Of a DNA stretch of 64,000 bases, positions 1 to 55,071 are shown one piece after another. The position numbers were made by a program, and so were the translations under genes. The number at the start of each line of letters is the position of its first letter. Position 1 is the first letter of the stretch. The notes under the pieces are model-generated. The model worked only from the letters and a program-made list of their open reading frames with translations. It was not told the origin of the DNA and searched no databases. Source of the DNA: Antedon mediterranea (lineage: Eukaryota > Echinodermata > Crinoidea > Comatulida > Antedonidae); contig NC_092678.1 in the NCBI RefSeq assembly GCF_964355755.1, positions 21,424,922 through 21,488,921 on the forward strand. The letters run 5' to 3'.

Positions 1-1890
1 CTTATTGAAGGGACACTCCTATTCTGAGGACATCCTTATTGAGAGGACACTCCTATTTTGATGACATCCTTGTTGAGGGAATATTCCTATTCTGAGGACA
101 TCATTATTGAGGGGACATTCCTATTCTGAGGACATCCTTGTTGAGGGGACACTCCTATCCTGAGGACATCCTTGTTGAGTGGACACTCCTATTCTGAGGA
201 CATCCTTATTGAGGGGACACTCCTATTATGATGACATCCTTATTGAGGGGACATTCCTATTCTGAGGACATCCTTGTTGAGGGGACATTTCTATTATGAG
301 GACATCCTTGTTGAGGGGACACTCCTATTCTGAAGACTTCCTTATTGAGGGGACACTCCTATTCTGAGGATATCCTTATTGAGGGACAATCCTATTCTAA
401 GGACATCCTTATTGAGAGGACATTTCTATCCTGAGGACATCCTTGTTGAGGGGACATTCCTATTCTGAGGACATCCTTGTTGAGGGGACATTCCTATTAT
501 GAGGACATCCTTGTTGAGGGGACACTCCTATTCTGAAGACTTCCTTATTGAGGGGACACTCCTATTCTGAGGACATCGTTATTGAAGGAACACTCCTATT
601 CTGAGGACATCCTTATTGAGAGGACACTCCTATTTTGAGGACATCCTTGTTGAGGGAATACTCCTATTCTGAGGACATCATTATTGATGGGACATTCCTA
701 TTCTAAGGACATCCTTGTTAAGGGGACACTCCTATCCTGAGGACATCCTTGTTGAGTGGACACTCCTATTCTGAGGACATTCTTATTGAGGGGACACTCC
801 TATTATGAGGACATCCTTATTGAGGGGACATTCCTATTCTGAGGACATCCTTGTTGAGGGGACATTCCTATTATGAGGACATCCTTGTTGAGGGGACACT
901 CCTATTCTGAAGACTTTCTTATTGAGGGGACACTCCTATTCTGAGGACATCCTTATTGAGGGACAATCCTATTCTGAGGACATCCTTATTGAGAGGACAC
1001 TCATATTCTGAAGACTTCCTTATTGAGGGGACACTCCTATTCAGAGGACATCCTTATTGAGGGACAATCCTATTCTGAGGACATCCTTATTGAGAGGACA
1101 TTCCTTTTCTTAGTACATCCTTGTTGAGAGGACATTCCTTTTCTGAGGACATCCTTGTTGAGAGGACATTCCTATTATGAGGACATCCTTATTAAGGGGA
1201 CACTCCTATTCTGAGGACATCCTTATTGAGGGACAATCCTATTCTAAGGACATCCTTATTGAGAGGACATTCCTTTTCTTAGTACATCCTTGTTAAGAGG
1301 ACACTCCTATTGTGAGGACATCCTTATTAAGGGGACACTCCTATTCTGAGGACATCCTTATTGAGGGGACACTCCTATTCTGAGGACATCCTTATTGAGG
1401 GACATTCCTTTTCTTAGTACATCCTTATTGAGAGGACATTCTTTTTCTTAGTACATTCTTGTTAAGAGGACACTCCTATTGTGAGGACATCCTTATTAAG
1501 GGGACACTCCTATTCTGAGGACATCCTTATTGAGGGACAATCCTATTCTGAGGCCATCCTTATTGAGAGGACATTCCTTTTCTTAGTACATCCTTGTTGA
1601 GAGGACACTCCTATTCTGAGGACATCCTTATTAAGGGGACACTCTTATTCTGAGGACATCCTTATTGAGGGACAATCCTATTCTAAGGACATCCTTATTG
1701 AGAGAACATTCCCTTTCTTAGTACATCCTTATTGAGAGGAAATTCCTTTTCTTAGTACATCCTTGTTGAGAGGACACTCCTATTCTGAGGACATCCTTAT
1801 TAAGGGGACATTCCTATTCTGAGGATATCTTTATTGAGGAGCCGGGACACAGCTATTCTGAGAACATCTTTATTGACAGTCTTATTCAAA
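1..1890. repeat. 34-bp minisatellite array 1
   Basis: About 55 tandem copies of a 34-bp unit, recognisable by alternating blocks GAGGACATCCTTATT and GAGGGGACACTCCTATTCT. It enters from the left window edge, so its true start is not seen. Variants (ACACTCC/ACATTCC, CTTATT/CTTGTT, CTTAGTACATCC) are mixed along the array, with 33-bp units caused by single-base losses. It ends in a degenerate unit beginning GCCGGGACACAG near 1852, about 600 bp beyond the stop codon of gene A. There are no unique spacers and no plausible coding use. Confidence 0.97.
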
Positions 1891-2495
1891 AGACACTTTC
1901 AGGTTAAATAAACGAAGGCCAATCTATATTAAGGAGATACTTTGAGTGGTCTTAATATGAGTTCTACTGTATGTTTAAATGACGCCACTAAAGATAATTA
2001 AAATATAGTTTTATTTCGAAATTAGTTATCGAAGCGTGGTAGTCTGAAGGCGATTTAAAATATTTAGTGTTGTCAGTAATGTCAATCTTCTCTGGTGTTG
2101 TCCACCATACTGTAACAGCCGCTCAATATAATCTCTTTCTTCCTTATATCTTTACTCTCATTAAAAGTTAATACTAACAAACTTCATCAAAAATAAATAA
2201 ATTGTTATCTCGTCACAATTTATATACAAAGTTATTAAACATAACTAACAAAAGAAATTAGCAACAAAACATATTACAACATTATTTTATTTATTTATGT
2301 CTTTTCCTCTTTTAACAAACATTACAAGATTAAATAAGACAATTATAATATATTATTCTATTTATAAATAATTAAAAAACAATAAATAAATAAATAATGT
2401 AAATACATTGTATACATCTTTCCTTTTTAAAAATCGAAAGCCATGTCTCGGGTCCATTCTATTGATTTCTTCATCAGTACTTCTATGAATGAATT
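1891..2495 (-). other. 3' flank and 3' UTR of gene A
   Basis: This is the AT-rich stretch between array 1 and the stop codon of gene A. On the minus strand two overlapping AATAAA signals lie at 2286-2295, about 200 bp after the stop, and are the likely polyadenylation signals. The same block recurs beside genes B, D and E, so it belongs to the duplicated gene-plus-array unit. I see no gene here. Confidence 0.6.
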
Positions 2496-5400
2496 TTAGT
2501 CACCACTTTCACCGTGTATAGTGTTGTATGATTTCATCTCTTGTTTTGTAATATTTCCATGTGACCATTCTTGTTGCTCTGCTTTTGCAAATATTAGAAA
2601 GAAAATCATTGCAAAAATATGGAAAGCAGCAATTATTCTAAACATCAAAGACCACTGATTGGCTGTATTCTGAAAAAAAAAACCCCAAAAAACAACTCAG
2701 ATTTAAACAAGTAAACAGGACGCGTGATGAGGTGTTTTCAATCAAACTTAAAACTTACATCTTCTTCGATCAAAGCTCCAAGAATAAGTGGACCAGTAAA
2801 ACCAACCGCAGCGGCTCCAGTTGTCACCATTCCTACGATTATTTGTGAGTGTTCCTTTGATATCTCCGTTATGTTTGTAAGTGTGCTCGTCGCATATATT
2901 CCTCCACAAGTAAACGCCACTGTAAGAAGTGTAACAGACGCGACTGCATGGTTTTCAAAGTATCCAATGAAAAATAGACAAATAGCAGGTATTCCCATAT
3001 CTACAAATAAGTCATGGAAATTCATTTTCATTAAAAAAAATTAAAACAGGAGATAGTTAATAAATGTAAATGTAATCGTCCACAAAATGAAAGAAGCAGT
3101 CACAATTTAAGAATGCATTTAATAATTTTAAAAACCCCCACAAAATAAACAATTTTTCTTACGTAAAATCATAAAAAACTTTCTAGTATTCAGAACATTC
3201 AGGTATTCCCGCCGAATGATGACGTCAGCAGCCACACCAGACAGCAGCGTAACTATGAATTCTAGAATTGGTGGAATTGATGTTAAAATTGCGATCTAGA
3301 AATACAGAAAAAAAGTATTATACGCCTATTCCTATGTTATATTCTATGTTTCTAGAAATATTTAGGTTATTTTATTATTAATTCATTCCTTATTATTCAC
3401 GGTTTCTGCCTTAAAACATTGGAAAAATAATACTTCTGCTCTCTTCATTGGTCGTGTTTCTGCAGCCAAAACAAAATTATCGGTTAATGTCCTAATAGTG
3501 TGCGCATGATCAGTCATTACCGAACAACCAGATGTCCAATCACATTATTGCAACAAATGTTCTTTCATGCCAAAGGTTTAAAATGATCCCATTTATCCCA
3601 TTATTATCCGATTTGAATGAGATAATTATCGGTTAATTTTTCTGGAGTGAAATCTGTTAAACCCCGTTTCCAAAGGCAGTTTATCGGTTAGTTTGTGGCT
3701 GCGGACACACAGCCTTTGACATATTTTTTTTCAATATATATTTTTTAGATATTTTTCCAGTGATTTTTTTCACTCCGCCACCATAAAATGAGTGGACACA
3801 ACAAGCGCAGTTCATATAATCTATCGCTTGTGATTGGTCAAATCAATTGCGTCGCGCTAACATCCTTGGGTTGCGCGCGTCCCGATGTGAATGTGATGGT
3901 GCTAGTTACTCTTCTGTCACAGGATCATATATTGAAGTGTACTAGTGTGTTCACTGTTGGTATCTGATAGAACAACGTAAGAAAGCATTTGGTAAGGCAG
4001 TCCAGAGATAGGTTGTAAATTAGAAGGAGAGAGGTCGAATGTATTGTAGTGCGATATCGCCATGGTGTTTTTAAAATCAAAGCCCTGTGTGTCGACAGCG
4101 CGCTGCGCGGACTTTTTGACAAAGTCAGCCCTCTATCAATAGGAGGCGAGAGTCTCAATTATACACAAACAAACACATATACTTTTAACATGCGCAGTGC
4201 TATCTTTTGTGATATAATAGTTGCGCAATCAAAATGTTTGCTTCCCGCTTAAAAATCCCTAAATGTTGATACCAAACTCGTTTACATATGACATTTTATT
4301 TTTATTTTTATACCTAGATGCTTGAACGACGTTAACAGGTATATTGCTGTTTGGAAAAACATGGAATAAATAAAATAAAAAGAGTTTTCCTTACCTTTGT
4401 TGGATCAAATCCAAATATCAATAACAAAATGGGTCCTTCAGTAAGAATAAAGGTAAAATTGAGAGTGTACGCCATGTAAGCAAACATGATAGACCACACT
4501 GCAGTTGATGTCAACATATCATACCATGGAACCGGTATGTCCTGATTAAAAAAACGTTTGAATTTAAAATGTGTTTATCACAGAATGATCAATGATTTAA
4601 CTCAACTATAGATTAATGAATATTCATTAACACATGACTCAACAGACGTTGATTACAAACATGTCAGCTTGACTCCTCCCATTATAATACCTTATTAGAG
4701 TCTTTAACTTCAAAACTTTTCAAATATTCGAGTTGCTGTGTTGAAATATATGGATCGTCAACAGGATTATCAAAAACGAAAGCTATGAATATTATTGATA
4801 ATAAACCACTAATGGTACCTAAAACGAAGAAGAAATGGTTGCTTATTATGCGAAAATGCATAGGGGAGGGAGGGGCTAAAAGTCACAGGGGTAAGTTGTC
4901 ACAGTGCTTTTTCAACCCTTTAAAGAAATGGAATGTTCCAGTTAGTGACCTGATTTGTGACCCCTTACTGTGCACTTCACACATACCGAAGACCAAGACA
5001 AAACTATTTCTAGATTTCATGTACTAAAAACACCCCATTTTTTGGCCTATAGATCAACTTTTTGTATTTCTACTAAAAACGGTATGTATGCATATCATTG
5101 TGGTTTACAAAGGAGAAATTTATGTTATAATGTAGTTGAATATCAGTGCTAAACAATGTACAAGTATGGTCGCTTGATTACCACGGATTACGTGTAACGA
5201 GTGGGTTTTCTATAAAATATGGTAGTGGGGCAAGTTGTCACAGGTTGTGACAACTTTCCCCTAAACATTTTATTTTAGTGTTTTATCTATCCCAGTCCTA
5301 CGGCCTAAGAAACGTTCCCTAGTCATATACACTCTCTTATAGACTATTTACTATTTTAGGCCTCTATTACTGTCGTATAAATAAATAAACTGCTAGATAG

Positions 5401-8400
5401 GCCTATTCTTGCTTTGTAGGCCTTAATCATTTTGTTTTCTTGTCAATTGGATATAGGGACCCCTAATAATCGAGAAAACACAATGTTTATATTATTTTTT
5501 TCTATTTTATTCATATGGTACGCAATTAAAAGCGTAAAAAAAAGTTTTAGATGAACATCAGAACCAAAGAAGAAGAATAAACCTAGTTCAAAAGATAAAG
5601 TGCACAAGAAAGAAATTGGATGTGTTTGTAGGCCTACTGCAAAGAAGATTATTCCGTGTCAGTTTCAGGAGGAATCTGGATCATGTTCTCTGTCTGTGAA
5701 GAATAGGCTCATGAAGATTGTGCTGTATCAATGAATCAGATGCAGACTTCACATGTGAATTATGTTGCTAGCTAGATTTTATTTAAAGTGACATTGTAGA
5801 TAAATGTATTGCGGACTCTCTGCAACAGGACTATAAATAGACCTATATCGATTACAACATACTTTAATACTTATTATTATTGTTTTTAATACATTATTCA
5901 TCATCTAAACTCACTAACTTATGTATAAACACACTTTCTATAAATAAATAAGTTTTAAGCAGATCTTTTATGCATATTGTCTTATTTTTAACGATGTGAC
6001 AAAGTGCCCCACTGCATGTGACAACTTGCCCCATGTACGGGGCAAGTTGTCACATCTGACCCATTGGGGAAAAAGTGCTCCCCTGGGTCACGGTCAAGAG
6101 TATTTTCACAATCAATGGTCCCCTTATATAGACCATACCCTAGGCTATATTTGAAGGTACAAACTAAGTTAATTTAGCCTAAAACTTAATATTTAGAGGA
6201 GATTAGAATGAATTTGTGACTTTTAGCCCCTATCTCCCCTATATTAATATACATCAAAATATTAATGATCATTTAAATATTTCTAAAGAAAGTATGTTTG
6301 GGTTTGATTAGTCACATTCAGAAGAAACACGCTTATTATTATTATTGTAAAGTGGAACCAGAAACAATCTCTCAACTGTAGGCCTAAGTATTTACTTTAC
6401 CAAAAATACAAAAAGAATATTATTTGCGAACTGACGAGATAGTTTAGGAGTATGTTTTAGTTCAAAAGCCAATTCAATTTTATTTAATCAACAATAATCA
6501 TTTGCAGTATAATATATGCGATAGTTTTTTCTGTTATCTTGTTAATGTGTTTACATTTTATTTAACCCGGCTCACTAAAGTACTGTCCTATTCTCTTTAT
6601 TCTCTTTAAATAGTGTTTATATTATTATTATTAATATTGTTAGGTTAAACTCACTGAAAGTATAATATGACGTTGGCCATCCTCCTAAACTGGGAGAAGT
6701 AGAAATCCACATAGATAAAGGATAACAGAAAACTTCAGCTATGCTCGTGCCTTTAGAAAACAAAGTAAACAACATAGAGTTTCCAAACGTTAAACATTTT
6801 TCCAGTAGCTTTAAGCTTGATTCCCACAAGTGACCAAATCATAAGCGACAGTTTGGATGACCTATCGTGTCGTGATTGGTCAAAGTTACTTACGATGTAC
6901 TATTAAGTCCATAATCAGGTTAAAAGATGTCATAAAATAGGGTCCCGTGTGCAATTTGTGGTGAAAGTTGGCAACTTGTCTAAATATCTTTAGTGGGTCA
7001 AAATAAACCAGAAAAACGTTGTTGCCCCACACGGAATACCTCTTTTAACCTGACTACCAAGCATTATGTTCAACAAAGAAGAAAATTTGCTTTCTTAAGC
7101 TCTGTCTAAACTATCAAACTGTAATAATAGTGTAGACAGAGCTTTAGATATTAACTATAAAAACACGCAAAAAACACTTTTTCTTGTACACAATTACTTA
7201 CCAGAATATGCAATAGATAATAATGTACTCCGTTCAGACGGAACAATCCATTTTTTTAAAGTGATATAAACCGCCGGCATGATTAATCCCTAGAAATATA
7301 AATAATTTTTATAACGGTTGAAAAAAAACCACGTAATACCGTTTAAACGACGTATTACCGTTACGCAGCACAATTTTGTCTTTTTGGTTGTTTGTTGCGT
7401 AACGTACATTTTTACGCCCTATCAATAGTAGCAATAACGTATGCGTAACAAAGGTTGTTAACCAATGACAAGCGAGAGTTTGGGAAATCCAGAGCGCGCG
7501 TGTCACTTGGTCAAATTAATTGCGTTGCGCTTACGTACTTGCGCTGCGTCCTAGTGGGAACCAAATTGTAACGTTATGGCGTTAAGTTTGTATAAGTGTA
7601 AATAGTATCGTTGTATACGCAACACATCCTATAGTCAATAGCCAATGGTATTGGCCGCCCATTGAAAAAAAAAACAATCGTTTCTCCATACAGTGCAACA
7701 TAATTGAACTGCCAATAAAGACACTAACTTCTACGACGCCTTGTAAAACCCGTACGATGGTCAAAAGACTGGTTCCAACGCCGGCAGCCCAAGGTATCAT
7801 GGCAGACAGTAAACCTTGCAACAGAAGAACTATTACAATTGATCGTTTTCCGCCAATTTTACCAGCCAACCAACCGCTCGGCAGTCCGCTTATTATATAA
7901 CCGTAATAAAATGATCCAAGTATATGTTGTTGGGTTTGGTCGTCCCAATCAAAAGTTGGTATCTATAAAGCAAAATCGTATACATAGAACAGCACATAAT
8001 GTGTACAAAGTGTTTTAAAATAATAATTTCCCCGAGATTTAGACTTTTTGTTCCACTCCATGTTTATTAACTTTGACCTAAAGTAAATAAATGCCCATTC
8101 CCTATTTGTGACGTTTTGAAAAAATAATGCATATATATTACTTTAAAAAACATTAAACCAGGTCATTCCTTGTCTTAACTGTACGTTTTATGGTAAATTA
8201 CGATAAAAAAAGAGAAACAATGCACGCGGTGAATTTCCTCTCGTGGACGGTCTTTAGGCCTCCTAGCTAGGCTTAGTTTTGTTTTGTAAGCCTAGCTGGT
8301 AAACATCGTTAACGTACGAACACCGTACGCTAGCTATAGGCTAAAATACCAATTCGCGCGGGCCGCTACAATTATTAGAATCGACTTATTTTTCACATTT

Positions 8401-9325
8401 TTAAAGATGTATTTTATTTTGAAACACACAAAAATGAAAGTCAAAATACACACAATTTTAATTGGCCATATCAAAGTAATATTAAAGTTATTCACTTTAA
8501 GTCAAAAAATTCGAGACAAAAACAACAATTTTACGTAATTAATAGCTAATAATTTGATTACATTTCGTCTGGAAAACAAAGTAAACAAGGATTTCAAACC
8601 ATGAGTATACATTATGCATGATGCTAATTAGGATTGTTGACAACTTGTCATGGCTGAGAAGGTGTTTTCACACAGATCGCGAGAAAGTTTTATGATTATG
8701 CATACAGAGTAGCCAAATATCCGCATTGCATTATGAGATAGGCCTATGTTTTGATCGAAAACTTTGACTTGAAGTCAAAGTTATTTTTTAACCAAAAAAC
8801 GTCTGTTTTTCAGTTAAATGATTTTTTTTTCGACTATTTTTTGGTGAAAGTTAATAACTATTATAATACTTCAAAATGACCCACTTTTTTTCGAAATCTT
8901 TTTATTTTTATTTTTTTGGAATTTGACAAAGGGACAATACATCTTTAACCGTTTAAAGACGAAAACACTTATCTCAATAGGATCACAGTATTTATTTTTA
9001 CATTGTATGTTGTTTGTGACCCTAATTAGATCTAAAAAACGTAGAGAATGGGACTTTAAGACTAATGTAACGATTGTTGTATCCGTTACTATATATTCTA
9101 TAGTCTCGGCAGGATGTCAAACAGTCACAGAATATACAAACAATAACTTACCGAATGTGTTGCACTGTCATCTGAAATCGTCGTCGCATTATGATTTGAG
9201 TTCTGTTCTTCTGTGGCATTCCATTTGTTTACCATGCTTATAATGGTAATGTTTATGTTCAATCTGGTACAGTAAACACAAATCCATGCAAAGCAGCACA
9301 TTACTGCTACAAAATATCGTTTCAT
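2496..9325 (-). CDS. SLC17-family anion transporter, gene A (9 exons, 471 aa)
   Basis: Predicted major-facilitator carrier of the SLC17 family, moving organic anions or phosphate across plasma or vesicle membranes; the substrate cannot be told from sequence. Exons in transcript order: 9152-9325, 7729-7962, 7202-7289, 6655-6750, 4691-4818, 4395-4541, 3163-3295, 2759-3000, 2496-2669. All junctions are GT-AG, phases agree and the sum is 1416 bp with stop. Residues 4-19 form membrane segment 1, followed by R21-L-N and a loop with glycosylation sequons at N36 and N46. Exon 2 carries ILGSFYYGYI and the MFS loop GWLAGKIGGKR (88-98). Exon 3 carries the family ERS motif (155-157). The last helix is at about 426-442, with a hydrophilic tail. 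The start is the first ATG before helix 1. Length is normal for the family. Intron 1 holds a MITE and intron 4 a 1.38-kb insertion. It is almost identical to gene B. Confidence 0.9.
4863..6239. mobile_element. 1.38-kb TA-flanked inverted-repeat element in intron 4 of gene A
   Basis: The ends are inverted repeats of about 25 bp, reading GGGGAGGGAGGGGCTAAAAG on the left and its near-complement on the right. TA is duplicated at 4861-4862 and 6240-6241. Gene B has the intact empty site with one TA near 19459. This fits a non-autonomous Tc1/mariner-like insertion that arrived after genes A and B separated. The interior repeats GGGGCAAGTTGTCACA and its complement (for example near 5228 and 6039). 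No transposase reading frame is seen. Confidence 0.85.
6916..7052. mobile_element. collapsed fold-back element in intron 3 of gene A
   Basis: It begins CAGGTTAAAAGA and ends with the complement TCTTTTAACCTG. It matches the outer ends and one arm of the 698-bp element at the same place in gene B, but lacks the centre and most of the second arm. Best read as an internal deletion of the gene B form, or as the ancestral short form. Confidence 0.65.
8405..8944. mobile_element. TTAA-flanked MITE in intron 1 of gene A
   Basis: A 540-bp AT-rich element flanked by TTAA at 8401-8404 and 8945-8948. Its terminal inverted repeat reads AGATGTATTGTCCCTT; the left end is mutated here. TTAA targets point to a piggyBac- or Kolobok-type non-autonomous element. 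It has no coding capacity. Related copies are at 22201-22721 and, inverted, at 26011-26547. Confidence 0.8.
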
Positions 9326-10877: not shown

Positions 10878-10984
10878 CTGAAAGTAAATAAGGGGTTTTT
10901 TACGTCACTTGTGTGTGAACGACTTATTACCGTTTACGCAACATATCAAGGACAGCTGGTGATCAGTCTACCTGTCTGGCTAAG

Positions 10985-11515
10985 CTTAAAGAATTTATTT
11001 AGAAGGTGATCGGGATCTTGACGAATTTTATTGACAGTTTTTATGATGTTCTTTCATGAAGTGAAATAAGAGGTTCAAGGCTAATGAGGAATCATTTACA
11101 CCACTCCGTTCTCACTTTCAAGCTCTCATATGAGAGCTGACTTGTACAGTTTTCACAGGAGCTCGAGTGAAACTGTCTACCCATCCTACCATCAAAATAA
11201 GAAGACAAAAGATGTGGCAGATCATTCCAAAGACCAACAGATGAAAAGATAAATGAGCTGTTGCCATAGAAAACAGTGGCGGATTTTAAAACATTAACTT
11301 AGGACAATATGGTGTGATAAGCTCATCTATGTAGTATAACGAAGTTGAGTTCAAACTCTTGTAATAGTCAACAGACTCTTTAAATTAATTCTTTCTTGGA
11401 TAGAAAGCCAGTGGAGATCTTTGAGGATTAGAGTTATATTGGCAAATGCTTTGGTCCTAGTGAAAAAGGTGCAGCAGTATTCTGAGCTGAATCAGTTGTA
11501 GTTTTGTGATTTCAG
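10985..11515 (-). mobile_element. L2/CR1-like non-LTR retrotransposon 3' remnant
   Basis: Conceptual translation of the minus strand, with stops, shows the typical C-terminal end of a non-LTR reverse transcriptase. From about 11450 it reads RTKAFANITLILKDLHWL, then the segment RINLKSLL, and later SSVGLWNDLPHLL near 11240. A closely related remnant is at 29095-29580. It contains a palindrome AGCTCTCATATGAGAGCT-like motif near 11123. It is heavily decayed and abuts minisatellite array 2 directly. Confidence 0.65.
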
Positions 11516-13318
11516 GACAACCTTATATTGAGAGGACACTACTATTTTGAGGACATCCTTCTTGAGGGGACACTCCTATTCTTAGGAAATCCTTATTGAG
11601 GGGACATTCCTATTCTGAGGACATCATTGTTGAGGGGACATTCCTATTCTGAGGACATCCTTGTTGAGGGGACACTCCTATTATGAAAACATCTTTATTG
11701 AGGGGACACTCCTATTCTGATGACATCCTTATTGAGGGACAATCCTATTCTAAGGACATTCTTATTGAGAGGACATTCCTATTTTGAGGACATCCTTGTT
11801 GAGGGGACACTCCTATTCTGAGGACATCCTTATTGAAGGGACACTCCTATTCTGAGGACATCCTTATTGAGAGGACACTCCTATTTTGAGGACATCCTTG
11901 TTGAGGGAATACTCCTATTCTGAGGACATCATTATTGAGGGGACATTCCTATTCTGAGGACATCCTTGTTGAGGGGACACTCCTATCCTGAGGACATCCT
12001 TGTTGAGTGGACACTCCTATTCTGAGGACATCCTTATTGAGGGGACACTCCTATTATGAGGACATCCTTATTGAGGGGACATTCCTATTCTGAGGACATC
12101 CTTGTTGAGGGGACATTCCTATTATGAGGACATCCTTGTTGAGGGGACACTCCTATTCTGAAGACTTCCTTATTGAGGGGACACTCCTATTCTGAGGACA
12201 TCCTTATTGAGGGACAATCCTATTCTAAGGACATCCTTATTGAGAGGACATTTCTATCCTGAGGACATCCTTGTTGAGGGGACATTCCTATTCTGAGGAC
12301 ATCCTTGTTGAGGGGACATTCCTATTATGAGGACATCCTTGTTGAGGGGACATTCCTATTCTGAAGACTTCCTTATTGAGGGGACACTCCTATTCTGAGG
12401 ACATCGTTATTGAAGGAACACTCCTATTCTGAGGACATCCTTATTGAGAGGACACTCCTATTTTGAGGACATCCTTGTTGAGGGAATACTCCTATTCTGA
12501 GGACATCATTATTGAGGGGACATTCCTATTCTAAGGACATCCTTGTTGAGGGGACACTCCTATCCTGAGGACATCCTTGTTGAGTGGACACTCCTATTCT
12601 GAGGATATCCTTATTGAGGGGACACTCCTATTATGAGGACATCCTTATTGAGGGGACATTCCTATTCTGAGGACATCTTGTTGAGGGGACATTCCTATTA
12701 TGAGGACATCCTTGTTGAGGGGACACTCCTATTCTGAAGACTTCCTTATTGAGGGGACACTCCTATTCTGAGGACATCCTTATTGAGGGACAATCCTATT
12801 CTGAGGACATCCTTATTGAGAGGACACTCCTATTCTGAAGACTTCCTTATTGAGGGGACACTCCTATTCTGAGGACATCCTTATTGAGGGACAATCCTGT
12901 TCTGAGGACATCCTTATTGAGAGGACATTCCTTTTCTGAGTACATCCTTGTTGAGAGGACATTCCTTTTCTGAGGACATCCTTGTTGAGAGGACATTCCT
13001 ATTATGAGGACATCCTTGTTGAGAGGACACTCCTATTCTGAGGACATCCTTATTAAGGGGACACTCCTATTCTGAGGACATCCTTATTGAGGGACAATCC
13101 TATTCTAAGGACATCCTTATTGAGAGGACATTCCCTTTCTTAGTACATCCTTATTGAGAGGACATTCCTTTTCTTAGTACATCCTTGTTGAGAGGACACT
13201 CCTATTCTGAGGACATCCTTATTAAGGGGACATTCCTATTCTGAGGATATCTTTATTGAGGAGCCGGGACACAGCTATTCCGAGAACATCTTTATTGACA
13301 GTCTTATTCAAAAGACAC
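11516..13318. repeat. 34-bp minisatellite array 2
   Basis: About 53 copies of the same unit as array 1, with the same order of variants over long stretches. The block CTTTTCTGAG/CTTAGTACATCC and the terminal GCCGGGACACAG unit both recur. It therefore belongs to the roughly 14.6-kb duplication that produced genes A and B. It begins abruptly against a retrotransposon remnant, and the equivalent flank of gene B follows on its right. Confidence 0.97.
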
Positions 13319-31656: not shown

Positions 31657-31659
31657 TTA

Positions 31660-35287: not shown

Positions 35288-35332
<45 letters not shown>

Positions 35333-35333
35333 C
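35288..35333. repeat. trinucleotide microsatellite inside the transposase remnant
   Basis: About 14 GATGAT-type units. In different frames they read as poly-Ser, poly-Ile or poly-His. The run sits exactly at the deletion joint of the transposase, so the homopolymer tracts are not real protein domains. Confidence 0.9.
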
Positions 35334-42063: not shown

Positions 42064-42607
42064 ATAAACGTTATTACTGACAGTTGCTTCTCAACGTTTG
42101 TATTAATTAATAATTTAAAAATATATAAACGTCGTAGTGGTGTATCGTAACACATGTACTTTACTATTTCAATCGACTATGACAGTGACAGTTCTAACAA
42201 AGTACCGTATTAAATCGCAAATGTTTTACTGTATTTAGTGGTATATTATTTATAGGCCTATAAAACATTAAAAACAATATTTCGTTACTGAGTGGATAAG
42301 AATATATTTTAAAATGTTTCCTCTTTGTACCTATCTTCTTCCCCCATCCCTCAACCCTTAATGTTACATACAAAACACAAATTGGGTTTTTTTAAATGAG
42401 TCCAAATAAAAAAATTTGACTCATTTTGTTTCTCTCTCGGAAGTAATTCCCAGGGTGCTAATTTTGGTTGACTACATAAATCATTGTGTATATTTATTCG
42501 TTTCTGTAAACGACAATGTATTATAGTCCTGCGGTACGTACATTTGAAATCTCCATTTTTTTCTCGCTGGAAATACTGTGTATTCGAGAACCATCTGTGG
42601 GCACGAC

Positions 42608-42644
42608 CTAGATGGTACGCGAGCGAAGCGAGCGTGCCATCTAG
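42608..42644. other. strong GC-rich hairpin
   Basis: CTAGATGGTACGC pairs with GCGTGCCATCTAG around a GAGCGAAGCGA loop region. It is perfect except for one G-T pair and a small loop. It is repeated at 46502-46538. Such hairpins occur near Helitron 3' ends, but no CTRR end was placed here. Confidence 0.6.
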
Positions 42645-43525
42645 TATATTAAATTCACTATAATCCTCTATGATGATGATACACTATACTTCATAGCCAC
42701 ACATAAATATTGTAGATAACCGCCGCGTTCCATTTTTAAGGCTATATACTTTATGCATGCTGACTGCCAGTGATCGAAACAATAGGTACGCGGTTGTCTA
42801 GCGGTGTTCTTTGTACGATTCGTTCGTGCCCAAGCTCGCGTCAATATCATGTTACATCCTGGGACCAAAAATTCGTATTATTTTTCAGGTGAAAATCGGC
42901 AACCAATTCATTTGTTTAACAATAAGGTATGAGTTATTCACGAACGAGTTTACAAATTTTTCAATTTACAAACAACCTTTTGTATTGTGGGGCACGTATT
43001 TGGAGGATTTTCAGAGATGAGGGTGTGGTGAGGTATTGTGGATGTCGGGGATAGGGGTTCGCAGTCGGTTAAGGGGGGGGGGGGGGGGTCGCTGTAAAGG
43101 GGGGTTCGCCCGAACCATAAAAACCCCCCCTGGCTACGGGCCTGATAGACATGGGCTTTAGAGACTAATAATTAGGCCTAATAGTATTAATAGAAACTAT
43201 AATTTTAACACGTAATTCTTTAGTAATACATTATATTAAAAAACTAAACTAAACTAAAGGCTGATTATTTCAAAAATCCACACAAAACGCCGATATTCTT
43301 TTATGAAATCGCACACAGCGGAGATAGGCCTAGAATCGTATTGCAATTGTCGTGTAATCGCTTCTTGTTGCTATACGCTTGGGTGCACACGGAACAAGAA
43401 AATTTAACTGATGAATTATTCATGTTTATTATGTGACGTTTCATTAAGGGGTCCCCAACTTATGTACGAAAAAACAATCGCGGCCCGCGCGCAGGCGCAA
43501 TGGTATACCAATACCTGATACTTAC

Positions 43526-43767
43526 ATTTTCTTTGACCAAAGCTCCAAGAATAAGTGGACCAATAAAACCAATCGAAGCGGCTGCAGATGACACAATTCC
43601 TACGATTATTTGCGAATGTTCCTTTGATATCTCCATTATGTTTGTAAGTGTGCTCGTCGCATATATTCCATCAAAAGCAAATGCGACCGTAAGAAGTAAA
43701 ACAGACGCGACTGCTAGGTGTTCAAAGTATCCAATGAAAGACAGACACATAGCAGGTATTCCCATGT
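43526..43767 (-). pseudogene. duplicated SLC17 exon 8 (distal copy)
   Basis: A 242-bp exon identical in protein to 47414-47655, with the same GTAG acceptor and GTAAG donor. It begins MGIPAMCLSFIGYF and retains EISKEHSQIIVG. It was duplicated with the surrounding 3.9-kb block. Because 242 is not a multiple of three, only one of the two copies could be used in a functional message. Confidence 0.9.
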
Positions 43768-43829
43768 CTACAAAAAAGTAATGGAAATTGTAACAACTTT
43801 AATTAGGCATAAATCAAAACTAGAGTGTT

Positions 43830-43975
43830 GTATTCATTCTTCCGTTCATTCATTAGTTCATTAATTCATTCGTGTATTAGTCCATTCATTCACTCATTCG
43901 TTTGTTCACTCATTCATTAGTTCATTCATTTATTTGTTCATTCGCTTGTTCTTTCATTCATGTATTCATTCATTT
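43830..43975. repeat. CATT-rich simple repeat in intron 7 of copy D
   Basis: Degenerate run of ATTCATTC and TTCATT tetramers. An identical run is at 47718-47863 in the second duplication copy, and a short version lies near 56505-56525 in gene E. Confidence 0.85.
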
Positions 43976-44323
43976 GGTCAAAATCTATTACAATAACAAT
44001 ATAAGATTCCAAGCAGTATACTATGAAATAGGTGGATATTTAGTTGGTAAAAATTAATAATAGACCTAATGATGTTTTGGTTTCAATATTTTAGTTTGTG
44101 AAATGAGAATCTCATAAAATTAATATTGAATAGGGTTATATGTTTTGATGTAATGAATTGTATTGTTCTATAGTAAGCCTATTTGTGATCAAAACATATA
44201 TATATATAATTTATTTTTATTGATAATAAAGTGCTAATCGTTGTTTATAAAGATAAACGCGGAATACATTCTTAATTTTTTAAAAGACATACACACTTTC
44301 ATCTTACGCAAAATCATAAAAAA

Positions 44324-45140
44324 TTGTAATCGTATATTAAATCTATCAAAATAGTATTTTTTAAAGAAAATCGGCCTGTCTTCAACATTATGATGGTGTA
44401 CTCTAGCTGTTCAACCGGTTTTCAGCTATTAAAAACAATTATCGTAGGAGGAGATAGAAAAATGCGAAGCCTCCTCGCATTTTTTTGGCGGGTATTTTTC
44501 AAGATGGACATCCATTAGACAGTGTATACCACGATCGGAAAACACCCCTATTTGGGGCAAATCGTTGAACCTAAATTCGTTTTAATCGTCATTAACTAAT
44601 TATCTAACTCAATTTAATTAGTAAACAGGGTTACATCAGGCGGTTAAAATCAGTACCGAAAGTACGAACCAACTTTACATACCATCGAGTGAAAATTCTA
44701 GAAGTAAGGCGCGATTTACCGAATTTTGCCCTTACGTAAGGGCAAAAATCGGTAAATCGCGCCTTACTTCTAGAATTTTTACTCGATGGTATATAAAGTT
44801 GGTTCGTACTTTCGGTACTGATTTTAACCACCTGATGTAACCCTGTTTACTAATTAAATTGAGTTAGATAATTAGTTATTGACGATTAAAACGAATTTAG
44901 GTTCAACGATTTGCCCCAAATAGGGGTGTTTTCCGATCGTGGTATACACTGTCTAATGGATGTCCATCTTGAAAAATACCCGCCACAAAAATGCGAGGAG
45001 GCTTCGCATTTTCCTATCTCCTCCTACGATAATTGTTTTTAATAGCTGAAAACCGGTTGAACAGTTCGAGTACAGCATCATAATGTTGAAGACAGGCCGA
45101 TTTTCTTTAAAAAATACTATTTTGATACATTTAATATACG
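44324..45140. repeat. palindrome with arms of about 400 bp
   Basis: 44324-44731 is the reverse complement of about 44740-45150, centred on the 8-bp palindrome TTACGTAA (44732-44739) within TGCCCTTACGTAAGGGCA. The arms differ at several places (for example CTCTAGC against CTCGAAC), so they are more diverged than the two tandem 3.9-kb copies. Confidence 0.92.
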
Positions 45141-48100
45141 TTTTTACAAATGTATTGATTTGTGATGAATGGAACATTCCAAATTATTTGGTTTAACCAT
45201 ACAGGTATAGATTTAGATTTATGGGCCCCCTTGGAGAATAAACATAAAATAGTATTGAATGCTGTACAATACTGTTAAGGTATTAACCACTTTTGATCGC
45301 AATTTGAATCGCAAATGTCTTACTGTGAGTGTTGGTACTGTTAGATGTAATATAAAAATATATACAAATAAACTTTATTACTGTGAGTGTGGGTAGGCCC
45401 TACTGTTAGATTATAAACATATAATATACAAATAAACATTCCAAATTATTTGGTTTAACCATAGAGGTATAGATTTAGATTTATGGGCGGGCCCCCTTGG
45501 AGAATAAACATAAATAGTATTGCAATGCTGTACAATACTGTTAAGGTATTAACCACTTTTGATCGCAATTTGAATCGCAAATTTCTTACTGTGAGTGTTG
45601 GTACTGTTAGATGTAATATAAAAATATATACAAATAAACTTTATTACTGTGAGTGGTAGGCCCTACTGTTAGATTATAAACATATAATATACAAATAAAC
45701 ATTCCAAATTATTTGGTTTAACCATAGAGGTATAGATTTAGATTTATGGGCCCCCTTGGAGAATAAACATAAATAGTATTGCAATGCTGTACAATACTGT
45801 TAAGGTATTAACCACTTTTGATCGCAATTTGAATCGCAAATTTCTTACTGTGAGTGTTGGTACTGTTAGATGTAATATAAAAATATATACAAATAAACTT
45901 TATTACTGTGAGTGGTAGGCCCTACTGTTAGATTATAAACATATAATATACAAATAAATAAACGTTATTACTGACAGTTGCTTCTCAACGTTTGTATTAA
46001 TTAATAATTTAAAAATATATAAACGTCGTAGTGGTGTATCGTAACACATGTACTTTACTATTTCAATCGACTATGACAGTGACAGTTCTAACAAAGTACC
46101 GTATTAAATCGCAAATGTTTTACTGTATTTAGTGGTATATTATTTATAGGCCTATAAAACATTAAAAACAATATTTCGTTACTGAGTGGATAAGAATATA
46201 TTTTAAAATGTTTCCTCTTTGTACCTATCTTCTTCCCCCATCCCTCAACCCTTAATGTTACATACAAAACACAAATTGGGTTTTTTTAAATGAGTCCAAA
46301 TAAAAAAATTTGACTCATTTTGTTTCTCTCTCGGAAGTAATTCCCAGGGTGCTAATTTTGGTTGACTACATAAATCATTGTGTATATTTATTCGTTTCTG
46401 TAAACGACAATGTATTATAGTCCTGCGGTACGTACATTTGAAATCTCCATTTTTTTCTCGCTGGAAATACTGTGTATTCGAGAACCATCTGTGGGCACGA
46501 CCTAGATGGTACGCGAGCGAAGCGAGCGTGCCATCTAGTATATTAAATTCACTATAATCCTCTATGATGATGATACACTATACTTCATAGCCACACATAA
46601 ATATTGTAGATAACCGCCGCGTTCCATTTTTAAGGCTATATACTTTATGCATGCTGACTGCCAGTGATCGAAACAATAGGTACGCGGTTGTCTAGCGGTG
46701 TTCTTTGTACGATTCGTTCGTGCCCAAGCTCGCGTCAATATCATGTTACATCCTGGGACCAAAAATTCGTATTATTTTTCAGGTGAAAATCGGCAACCAA
46801 TTCATTTGTTTAACAATAAGGTATGAGTTATTCACGAACGAGTTTACAAATTTTTCAATTTACAAACAACCTTTTGTATTGTGGGGCACGTATTTGGAGG
46901 ATTTTCAGAGATGAGGGTGTGGTGAGGTATTGTGGATGTCGGGGATAGGGGTTCGCAGTCGGTTAAGGGGGGGGGGGTCGCTGTAAAGGGGGGTTCGCCC
47001 GAACCATAAAAACCCCCCCTGGCTACGGGCCTGATAGACATGGGCTTTAGAGACTAATAATTAGGCCTAATAGTATTAATAGAAACTATAATTTTAACAC
47101 GTAATTCTTTAGTAATACATTATTTAAAAAACTAAACTAAACTAAAGGCTGATTATTTCAAAAATCCACACAAAACGCCGATATTCTTTTATGAAATCGC
47201 ACACAGCGGAGATAGGCCTAGAATCGTATTGCAATTGTCGTGTAATCGCTTCTTGTTGCTATACGCTTGGGTGCACACGGAACAAGAAAATTTAACTGAT
47301 GAATTATTCATGTTTATTATGTGACGTTTCATTAAGGGGTCCCCAACTTATGTACGAAAAAACAATCGCGGCCCGCGCGCAGGCGCAATGGTATACCAAT
47401 ACCTGATACTTACATTTTCTTTGACCAAAGCTCCAAGAATAAGTGGACCAATAAAACCAATCGAAGCGGCTGCAGATGACACAATTCCTACGATTATTTG
47501 CGAATGTTCCTTTGATATCTCCATTATGTTTGTAAGTGTGCTCGTCGCATATATTCCATCAAAAGCAAATGCGACCGTAAGAAGTAAAACAGACGCGACT
47601 GCTAGGTGTTCAAAGTATCCAATGAAAGACAGACACATAGCAGGTATTCCCATGTCTACAAAAAAGTAATGGAAATTGTAACAACTTTAATTAGGCATAA
47701 ATCAAAACTAGAGTGTTGTATTCATTCTTCCGTTCATTCATTAGTTCATTAATTCATTCGTGTATTAGTCCATTCATTCACTCATTCGTTTGTTCACTCA
47801 TTCATTAGTTCATTCATTTATTTGTTCATTCGCTTGTTCTTTCATTCATGTATTCATTCATTTGGTCAAAATCTATTACAATAACAATATAAGATTCCAA
47901 GCAGTATACTATGAAATAGGTGGATATTTAGTTGGTAAAAATTAATAATAGACCTAATGATGTTTTGGTTTCAATATTTTAGTTTGTGAAATGAGAATCT
48001 CATAAAATTAATATTGAATAGGGTTATATGTTTTGATGTAATGAATTGTATTGTTCTATAGTAAGCCTATTTGTGATCAAAACATATATATATATAATTT

Positions 48101-48211
48101 ATTTTTATTGATAATAAAGTGCTAATCGTTGTTTATAAAGATAAACGCGGAATACATTCTTAATTTTTTAAAAGACATACACACTTTCATCTTACGCAAA
48201 ATCATAAAAAA
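44732..48211. repeat. large tandem duplication, second copy
   Basis: Second copy of 40838-44323. Unlike the first, it runs without a break into complete exon 7 (48196-48328), so the right side is in its original context. Its left side begins at the palindrome centre and lacks the left ends of the nested elements. Confidence 0.95.
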
Positions 48212-48905
48212 CTTTCTAGTATTTAGTACATTCAGGTATTCCCGCCGAATGATGACGTCAGCAGCCACACCAGACAGCAGCGTAACTATGAATTCTAGAA
48301 TTGATGGAATTGATGTTAAAATTGCAATCTAGAAATTAAAATTATTATTATTGTTGTTATGTATCTCACAATGTGACGTCATGATAGATCAGGACAAAGT
48401 TTATCTCAGCTAAGGATGAGCTCTGGAAGTCATTTTATAGGAGGCCCACAAATGAACCTCATCGGGACTTTGATTGAAAGGTGGGGGTAGGACGGTGTGG
48501 TGCGGCGCTGCACGTCACCATGTAAACCCCGGATCAGAGCTTTGCTAGACTACAGTAGGTGAAAAGAGTAATATACAAACAAAATGACACTCGGAGAGTT
48601 TCACTTACACTTGTTGTATGGAATCCTAATATCAATAAATAACTTGGCCCTTCAGTAAGTATAAAAAGATAACTGAAACTGAATGCCGTGTAAGCAACAA
48701 TTATCGACCACACTGCAATTGATTTGAAGATATCACACCACGGAACCGGTACATCCTGAATAGAAAAAGAATTTGATCAAGTATAATTCATTATTAATTG
48801 GTCAATATTATGGAAGAACGTTTTGAGGTTGCTCGCTAGGTGCTACTTGTAACTTTTATATAGTTTTTTATAATTTTTGTTGTGTGAATAAATAAACTTG
48901 AAAGT

Positions 48906-49084
48906 AAGTATAAGTCCAAAGGCAAATTACTGAAAACATGACAATGCTGTGGGTATGTGGCTGGATCTCAATGGAGATACAAAAAAAAAAGCGAAAAGCT
49001 AGATTAAAACGATAAAGTAAAACAGCAAGAAAAGTTAGCAGAGCTTTTGGGCAACACAGCCCTTCATCAGTGCGTATAAGTATA
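48906..49084 (-). mobile_element. Penelope-like fragment with hammerhead-ribozyme-like core
   Basis: This roughly 172-bp insertion is in intron 5 of copy D but not at the matching place in gene E. It is flanked by AAGTATA at 48906-48912 and 49078-49084. On the minus strand it has CTGATGA (49064-49070), a GGGC/GCCC stem with a 6-base loop, then AAAAGCTCTGCTAA. That is close to the hammerhead layout found in Penelope-like terminal repeats, but the GAAA box has become AAAA preceded by C. Probably a decayed, inactive copy. Confidence 0.45.
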
Positions 49085-51957
49085 TTTAAGTAAGCGAAAT
49101 GATGACGGTGGTACGTTGGGACGTTTCCACATGAGGGCATGGTTGTGGACTGGTCTATTATGGTAGAGGGGTTCTCTAGGAACTTTTAATTTTTCGTATT
49201 TAAACCGTCCCTCTGGAGAGCACGGGCTATTGTCGGTATATCTAGGTATAAGCTGCACTCATAGACTACCGATACTACTGTGTATTTTGACTTCCTTCTT
49301 GAGCTTAAACCATTTTCATTTTAAATATCAACAGCTTAAAAATGGAAAGTTTAACTCCCTTAAAATGTTTCCAAATAACCACAGATTTGATTTCTTTGTA
49401 TTTGCTATATTAAAACAATTTAGTTTCATCCCTTCATATTACGGTATCAGGTAAATAATTGTTTTATTTAATCCACATTTTGGCCGAAGTGAATAACTAT
49501 CTTCAATTTTCAAAACTGTTATTCGTTTGGAGGATACAATTTAATTTAATGGAACGCCGTTTACGCAACATTTCATTTAATTCATATCGATGCATTTCAT
49601 TCACATGTCGCGTCAGAACATTTTTATCATCGACAGGTTGCATAAAGGGCGTTCCATAGAATTTAATTCAGTGGAGTTTGGAACATATATTATTAACTTT
49701 AAAAATATGTTTATGTTTATTACAGAAAGACGAATTGATATCGAATGATCGATTGTTCCAGCTAACGACGTCACAAGACTTACCTTATTTTGTTCGAGTT
49801 GAAAACTTTTCAAATATTCAACTTCCTTTGTTGAAACATAAGGATCGTCAACTGGGTCGTCGTAAATGAAAGCTATGCATATTATTACCAAAAGAGCACA
49901 AAGTGAACCTACAACAAGAATACAATGGTTGCTTAGAAGATGGTTGTCGAGGTATTTTTTTTTGTACAACTTGTATCAATAAGCTTTCAATACTATTTAA
50001 CAGAAAGATTCAAAGCAAGTAGACCTACATAACAACAATAACCGATCTACGAATGACTGATTTGTTGGAATTGCCAAGGTTGTCTTTATGTAGGCCTAAA
50101 CCTAATTAAAATAATATTGTATAAGTTGCTTTGTAGGAGTTATTATACTTTCTTTCTATTTGTTCTGTTAACCTGCCTGAGAAATGATTGTCAACTCCAC
50201 TATCAATTACTGACAAATAGTCGTTTCATGTTTTGCGTTTTTCTCTAGATTATAAAACTAGATGGATAGATAAAACATACTGTATAGACAGTAGTAAACA
50301 TTAAACATTTATTGAGTAGAAAGCCTAATAGTACTTTTATAAGTGTGTATTATTAATATTAAACTCACTAAGTATAATATGTCGTCGGCCATCCACCTAA
50401 ACTGTGAGAAGTGGAAATCCACGTAGATATCGGGTAACAGCAAACTTCAGCTATGCACGAGCCTGTAAAGAAAAGATGGGAAACCAAACACGGTTTCCAA
50501 ACGTTACCGGTAGTTAAGGCGCCGCGTGAAAACGAAACATTGACGTTCAATTGGAGTGCCGGCGCCGGACTGGAACAGGTGTGAAAGACCCTTTAATCAG
50601 TAATTCTGAATTTTCTTTATCAAAATGTCGATCGCTCAATTCATTCAACTAGGCTCATTGGGAACGAATGTTTCGAATTTGTTGTCGGTCCATCTTTGTT
50701 TTACTCAAACTTTGCGTTGCGTCCAAACGGAAACCAAGCCATCAAACAAGAAATTAGCTTTCTTTTACATTTTAAATACTTACCCGAATATGCAATTGAT
50801 ACCAATGTACTCCGTTCAGACGGAACAATCCATTTTCTTAAAGTGATGTATATCCCCGGCATGATTAATCCCTGAAAGTAAATAAGTGGGTTTTACGTCA
50901 GTAATGCGTGAACGGTGATTACCGTTTACGCAACACGTCAAGGAAATGTTTTCTTGAGTGTGTGTTATGTAACGTACGTCTTTTCGCCCTATCGCCAGTT
51001 GTCGTTTTGACGTTAATAACTATGTAGGCCTATGTAAATAGTACGTAAACATCTTGGTCATAATTGCTATTGGTTTTGAAAAACTTATTTAACGTATTTT
51101 AATCGGTTTTCCATGTCATACAAGAGTGACATTGTTTATATATTGAACTGGTAAAAAGGCACTAACTTCAATGACGCCTTGTAAAACCCGTAAGACGATC
51201 AGCAGACTCGTTCCATTGCCTGCAGCCCACGGGATCATGGCAGACAGTAAACTTTCCAACAGAAGAACTATTACAACTGATCGTTTTCCGCCAATTTTAC
51301 CAGCTAACCAACCGCCCGGCAGTCCGCCTATTATATAACCGTAATAAAACGATCCAAGTATTTTCTGTTGTGTTTGGTCATCCCAATCATAGGTTGGTAT
51401 CTGGAAAACGAAATCGTAAACACAGAACATCAGCTAATCACTATAATGTGTAGAACATGTTTTAAAATAATAATTTACACGCGATTAGATTTATTGTTTT
51501 CCATTTGTTTATCAATAACAACCGACCATAACGTAACTCAGAAAACTATACTTGTTTGCAAGGACCGAACTTGTGTTTTAAGAGAATGCTATTAGCTTAC
51601 CGGACTTATTGCACTGTCATCTGAAATCTTCGTCACATTTAAGTTCTGTTCTTCTGTGGTGGCATTCCATCTTTTTACCATGCTTAGAATGGTAATGTTG
51701 GGGTTCAATCTAGTACAGAAAACACAAATATATGCTAAACAACTCGTTACTGCTACAAAATATCGTTTCATTTTAAAAGCGACTAATTTTAAATTATAGC
51801 GAATGCGGTTTGAGGGAAGAACACACAATACTATGCTCTTATTATATTACAACAATGAAACCCGTCACCCGTTAATACTAGTAATAATAACGGTAGTCTT
51901 ATCATTGACTTATAAGTCTACTACAATGTTTTCTAAGCCCTTTAGGCTTACATGACC

Positions 51958-52062: not shown

Positions 52063-53667
52063 GATTGATTGATTGATTTTATTCGATATTCATACATAAA
52101 AGTTAAAATATACAATGTATAAAAGAGAATACCTGGATAACCCATTAAGTCGACAAAAAAGTAAACTTATTTCCAATGGGGTCCAATCCGTAATGACTGA
52201 AAAGTGAGTGGTTGGGCCTAGTACAATTATCATTAAGTATGACTCAGTAAAAATGAAAAAACAAGAAAATACATACAAGACAAGATAACATCAAAAAAAC
52301 AATATTAAAAATAACTTAATTAAACTGAAATTCCAATTCCAAGCTGTTCATTATTAAAATATTCTTTAAGTTTTATTTTGAAGGTTGCATTATTTTGTAT
52401 TGATTTGAGTGAATTGGGGAGCCTGTTCCAGTCACGGATACCTAAGAAATAAAAAGTCGTATCATTAACGCCAGTAGCCTTAGGAGTGACAAAATTAAAT
52501 GTTGTACCCCTGGTAAAATGGTTATGATGATCAGAAATTAACAAAAAGTTATCCTTAAGGAAAGAAGGCGTATTAAAGTTATAACGAATTTTGTGAACAT
52601 AATTTAATCTTAAAAACTTATTTCTGAGGCTGACATTAAGAAACCCAAGATCGGAAAGCTCTTTGGCACCTATGTGAGACCTCGGACCAACATTTAAAAT
52701 GAAACGTGTCATCTTGTTTTGGGCAGTTTTTAATTTATGTTTAAGATTCTTATTGACACCGCCGTACCATGCCGAGGCAGAATAGTCAAATGTACATTGT
52801 ATTAAAGCAGTGCTTAATAGTTTACGACATTTTTTATTCAAGCACGAACTTTGCCTATGTAAAAACTTCAACCTTGACTTAACTTTACTGATAACACTAG
52901 TTGCAATAATATCACATGATACATATTGGTCTAAATCAATACCCAAATATTTAACTTGCTTAGTACTTTTGATTCTACGGCCCATTAATTCTACAGAAAA
53001 CTCTTTAACTTTGTTAAGCTTCGCTCTGCTACCAAAGATAATACTTTCGGTTTTGCCAACATGTAAAGATAATTTGTTTTCAGTTAATCAGTCCTGGCAC
53101 TTAGCTAGGACAGTACTTAATTTATGAGCGATTTTGGTGGCATCGTGATGAGAATACAGAATCGTAGAATCATCAGCATAAAGCAATAATTGAACATCAG
53201 AATCAATACAAGAAGCAATATCATTTAAATAACATAGAAAAAGAATAGGGCCCAAGATGCTACCATGAGTAACTATAAGAGGTTCAGAGCAGGTACCATT
53301 CACACTGACAACTTGTGTGCGGTTAGTAGCGAGATAAGATTGAAACCAGTCAGTACACTTCAAACCCATGCATTTTAGCTTGTTAATTAAAATCACATGA
53401 TCGACGGTATCGAAAGCTTTTTGTAAGTCAATTAGAACCATTCCAGTAAGAAGGCCTTTGGACTTATTGTTTTTTAAACCGTCGATGAAATTTATGAGGT
53501 TGCTTTCAGTTGAATGGGCCTGCCGAAAACCGGATTGATAGGCATAAAGTATATTATTTTTGGAAAGATACTTTTCAACTTGTATAGCTACAGATTTTTC
53601 AAGAATCTTAGATACCGTAGGCAGAATACTAATCGGCCGATAATTCTCAACACTTGTTCTAGTATTT
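52063..53667 (-). mobile_element. non-LTR retrotransposon, 5'-truncated (reverse transcriptase half)
   Basis: The minus strand reads in one frame from about 53663 to the stop at 52320. It shows NYRPISILPTVSKILEKS, FRQAHSTE, IDLQKAFDTVDH, HGSILGPILFL and the catalytic LLLYADDSTI, then the thumb and C-terminal FLGIRDWNRLPNSLKSIQ. One in-frame stop (TGA, 53088-53090) replaces the expected Trp in CQD-LTENKLSLH. The 3' end is a (CAAT)n tail at 52062-52077. Order of blocks fits a CR1/Jockey-type element. The endonuclease and the N-terminal part of the reverse transcriptase are absent; the break coincides with the start of minisatellite array 4. Confidence 0.9.
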
Positions 53668-55071
53668 GAGAGGACACTCCTATTCTGTGGACATCCTTAA
53701 TGAGAGGACACTCATATTATGACGACATCCTTATTGAGGAGACACAGCTATTCTAAGGACATCCTTATTGAGGGAACACTCCTATTCTGTGGACATCCTT
53801 AATGAGAGGACACTCCTATTATGAGGACATCCTTATTGAGGAGACACTCCTATTCTGAGGACATCCTTATTGAGAGGACACTCCTATTCTGTGGACATCC
53901 TTAATGAGAGGACACTCCTATTATGACGACATCCTTATTGAGGAGACACAGCTATTCTAAGGACATCCTTATTGAGAGGACACTCCTATTCTGTGGACAT
54001 CCTTAATGAGAGGACACTCCTATTATGACGACATCCTTATTGAGGAGACATAGCTATTCTAAGGACATCCTTATTGAGAGGACACTCCTATTCTGTGGAC
54101 ATCCTTAAGGAGAGGACACTCCTATTATGACGACATCCTTATTGAGGAGACATAGCTATTCTAAGGACATTCTTATTGAGGGAACACTCCTATTCTGTGG
54201 ACATCCTTAATGAGAGGACACTCCTATTATGACGACATCCTTATTGAGGAGACACAGCTATTCTAAGGACATTCTTATTGAGGGAACACTCCTATTCTGT
54301 GGACATCCTTAATGAGAGGACACTCCTATTATGAGGACATCCTTATTGAGGAGACACAGCTATTCTAAGGACATTCTTATTGAGGGAACACTCCTATTCT
54401 GTGGACATCCTTAATGAGAGGACACTCCTATTATGAGGACATCCTTATTGAGGAGACACAGCTATTCTAAGGACATTCTTATTGAGGGAACACTTCTATT
54501 TTGAGGACATCCTTATGGGGTGGGGGACACACCAATTCTAAGGACATCCTTATTGAGAGGACACTCCTATTCTGAGGATATCCTTGTTGAGGGGACACTC
54601 CTCCTATTCTGAGAACATCCTTATTGAGGGGACACACATATTCTGATGATATCCTTATTGAGGAGACACTCCTATTCTGAGGAAATTCTTATCGAGGGGA
54701 CACTCATATTCTGAGGACATCCTTGTTGAGGTGACGCTCCTCATAAACACATATTCTGTTGACATTCCTATTGCGGGGACATTCCTAATCTGAGGAAATC
54801 CTTATTGAGGGGACACTCCTATTCTGAGGACATCCTTATTGAGGGTATAATCATATTCAGAGGACATCCCTATTAAGGGGACACTCTTATTCTGAGCACA
54901 TCCTTATTGAGGGGACACTCCTATTCTGAGGACATCCTTATTGAGGGGACACTCCTATTCTGAGGACATCCTTATTGAGGGGACACTCCTATTCTAGAAC
55001 ATCCTTATTTAGGGGACACTCCTATTCTAAGGACATCCTTATTGAGGGGACACTCTTATTCAAAATACACT
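53668..55071. repeat. 34-bp minisatellite array 4
   Basis: About 41 units. The left two-thirds is a higher-order repeat of about four alternating variants (CTGTGGACATCCTTAATGAG, TATGACGACATCC, GGAGACACAGCTATTC, TTGAGGGAACACTCC). The right third repeats the variant order of array 3, ending TTATTCAAAATACACTTTCG. It starts abruptly against a truncated retrotransposon and ends about 660 bp beyond the gene E stop. Confidence 0.96.

Follow-up and report, generated by a model that had tools for sequence, protein, structure and literature searches.

The window, that is, the whole 64,000-nucleotide stretch of Antedon mediterranea DNA analysed here, lies within a cluster of SLC17 genes that runs on C9 from about 21.423 to 21.525 Mb, past both window ends. 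Further SLC17 clusters are found on C2, C3, C6, C8 and C10. The gene copies in the window are placed as follows:

2496..9325, minus strand, SLC17 copy A1
17112..23070, minus strand, SLC17 copy A2
24001..28525, minus strand, SLC17 copy C, with no array at its 3' end
33680..51771, minus strand, SLC17 copy B1, with a long insertion-bearing intron
55730..60220, minus strand, SLC17 copy B2

Exon translations joined by hand yield a 479-residue protein, encoded on the minus strand, that resembles SLC17 proteins over its full length. It matches sialin (SLC17A5), residues 3-458, at E = 3.4e-65 (PDB) and TIGR00894 (NCBIfam) at E = 3.2e-89, below the curated cut-off. Both matches uphold the naming of the genes as SLC17 in a preliminary description of this DNA. 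Read from the left, the cluster consists of partial copy D (locus L017), array 1, A1, remnant C', array 2, A2, C, array 3, B1, array 4, B2, partial copy E and further copies. Inside B1, positions 40838-44323 and 44732-48211 form a 3.5-kb tandem duplication, 99.8% identical, in which one coding exon is doubled; it is either very recent or an assembly artefact. The long intron of the same copy holds open frames (34724-35663, minus strand) that by eye resemble a fragment of a P-element/THAP9-type transposase. Exon 1 and the upstream sequence of C and B1 share a tract of 98% identity (28161-28818 versus 51411-52064), against about 88% in the neighbouring sequence, which looks like gene conversion or recent exchange. 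Two partial SLC17 copies, one at the far left of the cluster (L017 6921-7466) and one to the right of B2 (window 60609-61162), are 96% identical, perhaps hinting at a larger duplication that would span the array-bearing genes.

The four arrays are built from a 34-bp unit. We propose below that each belongs to a copy of a short element with terminal inverted repeats (TIRs), a MITE. Tandem Repeats Finder places the arrays at 1-1876, 11526-13261, 31836-33117 and 53666-55061; the array limits adopted here differ from these by a few bp to tens of bp:

1..1971, plus strand, putative MITE copy 1: array 1 (about 64 units, beginning left of the window; array part 1-1884) and right end of the element
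1885..1959, plus strand, inner right part of copy 1, from array to TIR: flanking block (from 1885) and the bases following it
1960..1971, minus strand, right TIR of copy 1, reading AGTTCTACTGTA on the plus strand
11511..13393, plus strand, putative MITE copy 2: array 2 (52 units, array part 11523-13306) and right end
31836..33201, plus strand, putative MITE copy 3: array 3 (array part 31836-33114), left end lost beside an insertion
53666..55145, plus strand, putative MITE copy 4: array 4 (array part 53666-55058) and right end, left end cut by a 5'-truncated non-LTR retrotransposon
13382-13393, 33190-33201 and 55134-55145, minus strand, right TIRs of copies 2, 3 and 4

The left flank places the start of array 1 about 315 bp to the left of the window, which opens inside the array. 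The right TIR lies 527 bp from the stop codon of A1, 3721 bp from that of A2, 481 bp from that of B1 and 587 bp from that of B2, so that the earlier placement of every array just beyond an SLC17 3' end fits three arrays (481-587 bp) but not array 2, at 3.7 kb. AATAAA stands on the minus strand at about 2010 and at 2286-2290. No array was found at copy C or in the intervals to the right of B2. Because these copies are without one, the rule runs one way only: an array implies an SLC17 copy, and the converse fails. A 28-bp block at the right of each array has exactly four occurrences in the window, where none would be expected; the 354-Mb genome as a whole also has four, each at the right end of an array. 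The four 34-bp arrays with a common right-hand block, as first described, are thus real, and the block sits beside every one of them and nowhere else in the genome. The pairing of variant order, 1 with 2 and 3 with 4, was likewise borne out: against 200 shuffles of the units, the order common to arrays 1 and 2 has z = 20.5 and that common to arrays 3 and 4 has z = 6.4. Between the A pair and the B pair, unit order is not conserved relative to shuffled units (z from -1.2 to 0.4), and for this reason a single, fully colinear ancestral array was dropped. Array 4 has a 102-bp higher-order repeat of its own (Tandem Repeats Finder). Arrays 1 and 2 are 98.6% identical and differ in length by 411 bp, about 12 units; this is a net figure, as alignments place the gap differently (a 405-bp gap or a 101-bp gap first). 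A single spot for the 12-unit difference was dropped, since the alignments disagree on its position.

Is the unit confined to this locus? With up to three mismatches, the 34-bp pattern has 130 genome matches, against 0 for the reversed control. Among the matches listed, those with 0-2 mismatches all lie here (C9:21,424,655-21,457,795), and those off the locus have three mismatches and take the form TTCAGGGGACACTCCTATTCAGGGGACATCC, two near-identical 17-mers. Searched genome-wide, this form gave 411 matches (0 in the control), on all contigs listed (C1-C10), and most of 20 dispersed sites sampled are arrays of period 17. From the two-17-mer form and these period-17 arrays it follows that a 17-bp unit, CTATTCAGGGGACACCC, is dispersed in the genome and that the 34-bp unit is its diverged dimer. 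The preliminary description had expected the unit to be confined to or strongly enriched at this locus, as opposed to a dispersed genome-wide satellite. Each alternative is half right: among the matches listed, the close 34-bp form (0-2 mismatches), a diverged dimer, is local, but the 17-bp family with its 411 matches is a dispersed, transposon-borne repeat. In a related element (L030, G000:C5:6526800-6531400), the 17-bp unit stands within a longer higher-order repeat of 79/98 bp.

The dispersed arrays share their edges. Their left edges have TACAGTAGAACC in common, and many right edges carry its reverse complement. The left TIR TACAGTAGAACC, allowing two mismatches within 60 bp, is present at 13 of the 20 sampled arrays (0.07 expected from shuffles, 0 with the reversed motif), and both ends are present in seven of them. 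An extended TIR, TACAGTAGAACCYCTMTTWWGGGGACAC, has at least 1,038 genome matches at three or fewer mismatches, against 0 in the control, so the element has many dispersed copies with the same ends. Moreover, the 17-bp unit is identical to the inner TIR part CTATTAAGGGGACACCC at 16 of 17 positions. By their shared edges and this likeness, the dispersed arrays are the inner repeats, variable in number, of a short element whose own TIR gave rise to them. By its ends, the element would be pogo or Tc1/mariner-like. A search for an autonomous partner with DDE_1 (PF03184) returned 47 genome matches, and among ORFs of at least 90 aa in 17 TIR loci none was recognised by eye as a transposase. The TIR letters CAGTAGAACC occur in literature text only in unrelated papers, apparently by chance. 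On C4, the inverted repeat of the MITE itself recurs head to tail about every 56 bp (L056-L058, G000:C4:15881268-15883953) and constitutes a separate TIR-derived satellite.

The four window copies carry the right end of this element. Each ends, some 75 bp after the flanking block begins, in AGTTCTACTGTA or AGTTCTACTATA, the TIR in the expected orientation with one or two mismatches; a right-end terminal inverted repeat is therefore present in all four. When 40,000 sampled background 27-mers were compared with the TIR, all scored below every one of the four right ends (28-mers). A profile built only from 24 dispersed right ends reaches its end at exactly these four places in the window, with individually modest matches (E 0.04-0.4 each), and its reversed decoy gave one unrelated match (E = 5.8). 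Wording similar to the right block is visible in the dispersed copies L024 (GGGGACACTTTCCTGAAACAAG) and L036. With TIR ends following the block and the right-end profile reaching them, the conserved flanking block is best understood as internal MITE sequence that leads up to the right inverted repeat. At the left, TTCAGGACAACC (at 11511 and at L017:8685) is a candidate TIR that differs from the left TIR at 3 of 12 positions, but it also resembles an ordinary half unit and could be a worn one; copies 3 and 4 have lost this end. TA stands after the right TIR, and the left side reads TT. Copies 1-4 have no transposase of their own: an ORF of more than 120 aa starting and ending inside them was not found, and they hold only repeats and ends.

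The left neighbours of the arrays and the one duplication joint that we could place are as follows:

10964..11510, minus strand, L2-like LINE remnant, left neighbour of array 2, 99.4% identical to the left neighbour of array 1
29084..29582, minus strand, the same LINE remnant left of array 3, before an insertion, 90% identical
29583..31835, no strand given, insertion or insertions (2.25 kb) between LINE remnant and array 3, with two 0.93-kb copies of 96% identity
52052..53665, minus strand, 5'-truncated non-LTR retrotransposon abutting array 4, 3' end approximate
about 10319, no strand given, A1/A2 duplication junction, where the last exon of an SLC17 copy meets exon 5 of the copy D type

We take the LINE remnant to be L2-like from the translated motifs ILKDLHWL and GLWNDLP. 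The left junction of array 1 lies outside the window and has the same remnant as array 2; the remnant at 29084-29582 stops at the same base run, GTGATTTCAG, as its counterparts left of arrays 1 and 2. The earlier statement that the left junctions fall on different sequences is not borne out by this comparison, as arrays 1 and 2 share the LINE remnant (99.4%) and array 3 has it too (90%), behind the insertion. At array 4, the retrotransposon reading frame continues straight into the array. Given the shared remnant and the insertions, the differing left junctions of arrays 3 and 4 are best read as probable later damage to one common left side.

A1/A2 homology continues across both array edges. 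Window positions 9900-10318 match the interval between A2 and C and extend into C's last exon, as far as 24086. Starting at 10319, the match changes to exon 5 of copy D (L017:8063-8129; 66 of 67 identical). At this switch, one SLC17 copy is joined by its last exon to exon 5 of another, with about 1 base of overlap and almost no microhomology, and array 2 begins 1.2 kb further right. The youngest gene duplication (A1/A2) thus has its joint in an SLC17 exon, outside array 2. An NAHR breakpoint, with the joint inside the array and the flanks exchanged, was not found for A1/A2, whose flanks are concordant. The arrays had been proposed to be the recombination seams of the cluster, and the exonic joint near 10319, together with homology through both array edges, speaks against this. 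What does hold of the original proposal is co-amplification with the genes, as array, right block and, in copies 1-3, left LINE block were inherited together with concordant left and right similarity. The arrays are best read as passengers of the gene duplication, and seams in the arrays are not supported for A1/A2.

The pairs of copies differ in how far they have diverged. MITE right ends differ by 0% (1-2), 1% (3-4) and 9-10% (A-B); left LINE blocks by 0.6% (1-2) and 10% (versus array 3); and 3' flanks by 0.8% (1-2), 7% (3-4) and 7-15% (A-B). Left block, MITE end and right flank all group the copies alike. Since arrays of one pair still agree in unit order, those of different pairs no longer do, and array 4 has its own 102-bp repeat, the units turn over faster than their flanks.

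Based on these observations, we propose a model that we hold to be very probably correct: an old VNTR-bearing MITE would have been carried along in SLC17 duplication, with later turnover of its units. One copy of a dispersed, non-coding TIR transposon would have lain between two ancestral SLC17 genes, beside the LINE remnant and just past the 3' end of one gene. Tandem multiplication of the inner TIR part would have given this MITE family its 17-bp VNTR, which at the SLC17 locus would have become the diverged 34-bp dimer array. Gene-sized tandem duplications with breakpoints elsewhere could then have spread the LINE-MITE-gene block to four places. Arrays 3 and 4 would subsequently have lost their left sides to transposon insertions, while gains and losses of units changed array length and, after the A/B split, units were presumably reordered. 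The homologies, the right TIR, the dispersed family, the shared left block and one duplication joint are direct observations; a single ancestral insertion, this order of events and the transposon superfamily are what we infer, and parsimony places the insertion before the A/B split.

The opposite relation of arrays to genes, in which unequal exchange between arrays made the SLC17 copies, is improbable. The arrays are of some length, resemble one another and all point the same way, and array 1 differs from array 2 by 411 bp, about 12 units; exchange within them is therefore possible, and the order array-A1-C'-array-A2-C-array could come from exchange between the outer arrays. Such an exchange would, however, leave array 2 like array 3 on its left and like array 1 on its right. 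Instead array 2 agrees with array 1 on the left (99.4%) as well as on the right (99.2-100%), and its left side is about 10% away from array 3; the A1/A2 joint lies in exon sequence at 10319, and several neighbouring SLC17 copies have no array between them. A different matter is whether the MITE-borne VNTRs, while not the original joints, now pair with one another in unequal exchange that still alters how many SLC17 copies individuals of the population have. We regard this as improbable; if true, it would have left its mark in the A/B unit reshuffling and in the 411-bp length change of array 1 against array 2.

A plain local minisatellite of the SLC17 3' region, with no transposon and with a likeness to the dispersed repeats that arose by convergence, would account for the restriction of the close 34-bp form to this locus (among the matches listed) and for left TIRs that are not clear-cut in the window copies. 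It is nevertheless very improbable in view of the genome-wide 17-bp periodic family, the right-end TIR that all four copies have and the resemblance of the inner right block to dispersed L024 and L036. The MITE family is abundant, so the element might also have inserted independently beside several SLC17 copies through a target preference. Against this, the offset to the 3' flank, the left LINE block and the 28-bp block are the same in the copies, the same target-site position is seen in all of them, and the listed array sites have no general link to other SLC17 clusters; we consider it extremely improbable.

What are the implications of a MITE carried along with the SLC17 genes? A locus-specific minisatellite can mimic a feature of a gene family while being the expanded interior of a transposon that was duplicated together with the genes. 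As flank divergence is known for each pair, the four copies may also act as a small clock for the decay of VNTR order, which is kept at about 1% and 7% flank divergence and lost at about 10%. TIR elements with TIR-derived or MITE-borne inner repeats are already known, and in this respect our observation is largely ordinary. A review presents miDNA4 of Xenopus tropicalis as a satellite-carrying Tc1-mariner MITE (PMC9659126), likewise a short non-coding TIR element whose inner tandem repeat expands and homogenises. In our case the unit is 17 bp (locally a 34-bp dimer) and TIR-derived, and the likeness drawn here is one of structure. For Xmix/Xstir of Xenopus laevis, the same review reports a tandem repeat from the TIR of a MITE, with another unit and in another host. 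Tetris of Drosophila virilis, with TIR-220, has a variable-number repeat that copies part of its TIR, as does the MITE described here, and its repeats seed longer arrays (PMC4079207); it differs in having long foldback TIRs and 220-bp repeats, where this element has short TIRs and 17-bp repeats. As for the genes themselves, the yeast CUP1 arrays involve a metallothionein gene and no MITE, but PMC4232551 describes tandem gene copies whose first joint arose by non-homologous joining, as the joint at 10319 suggests for the SLC17 cluster.
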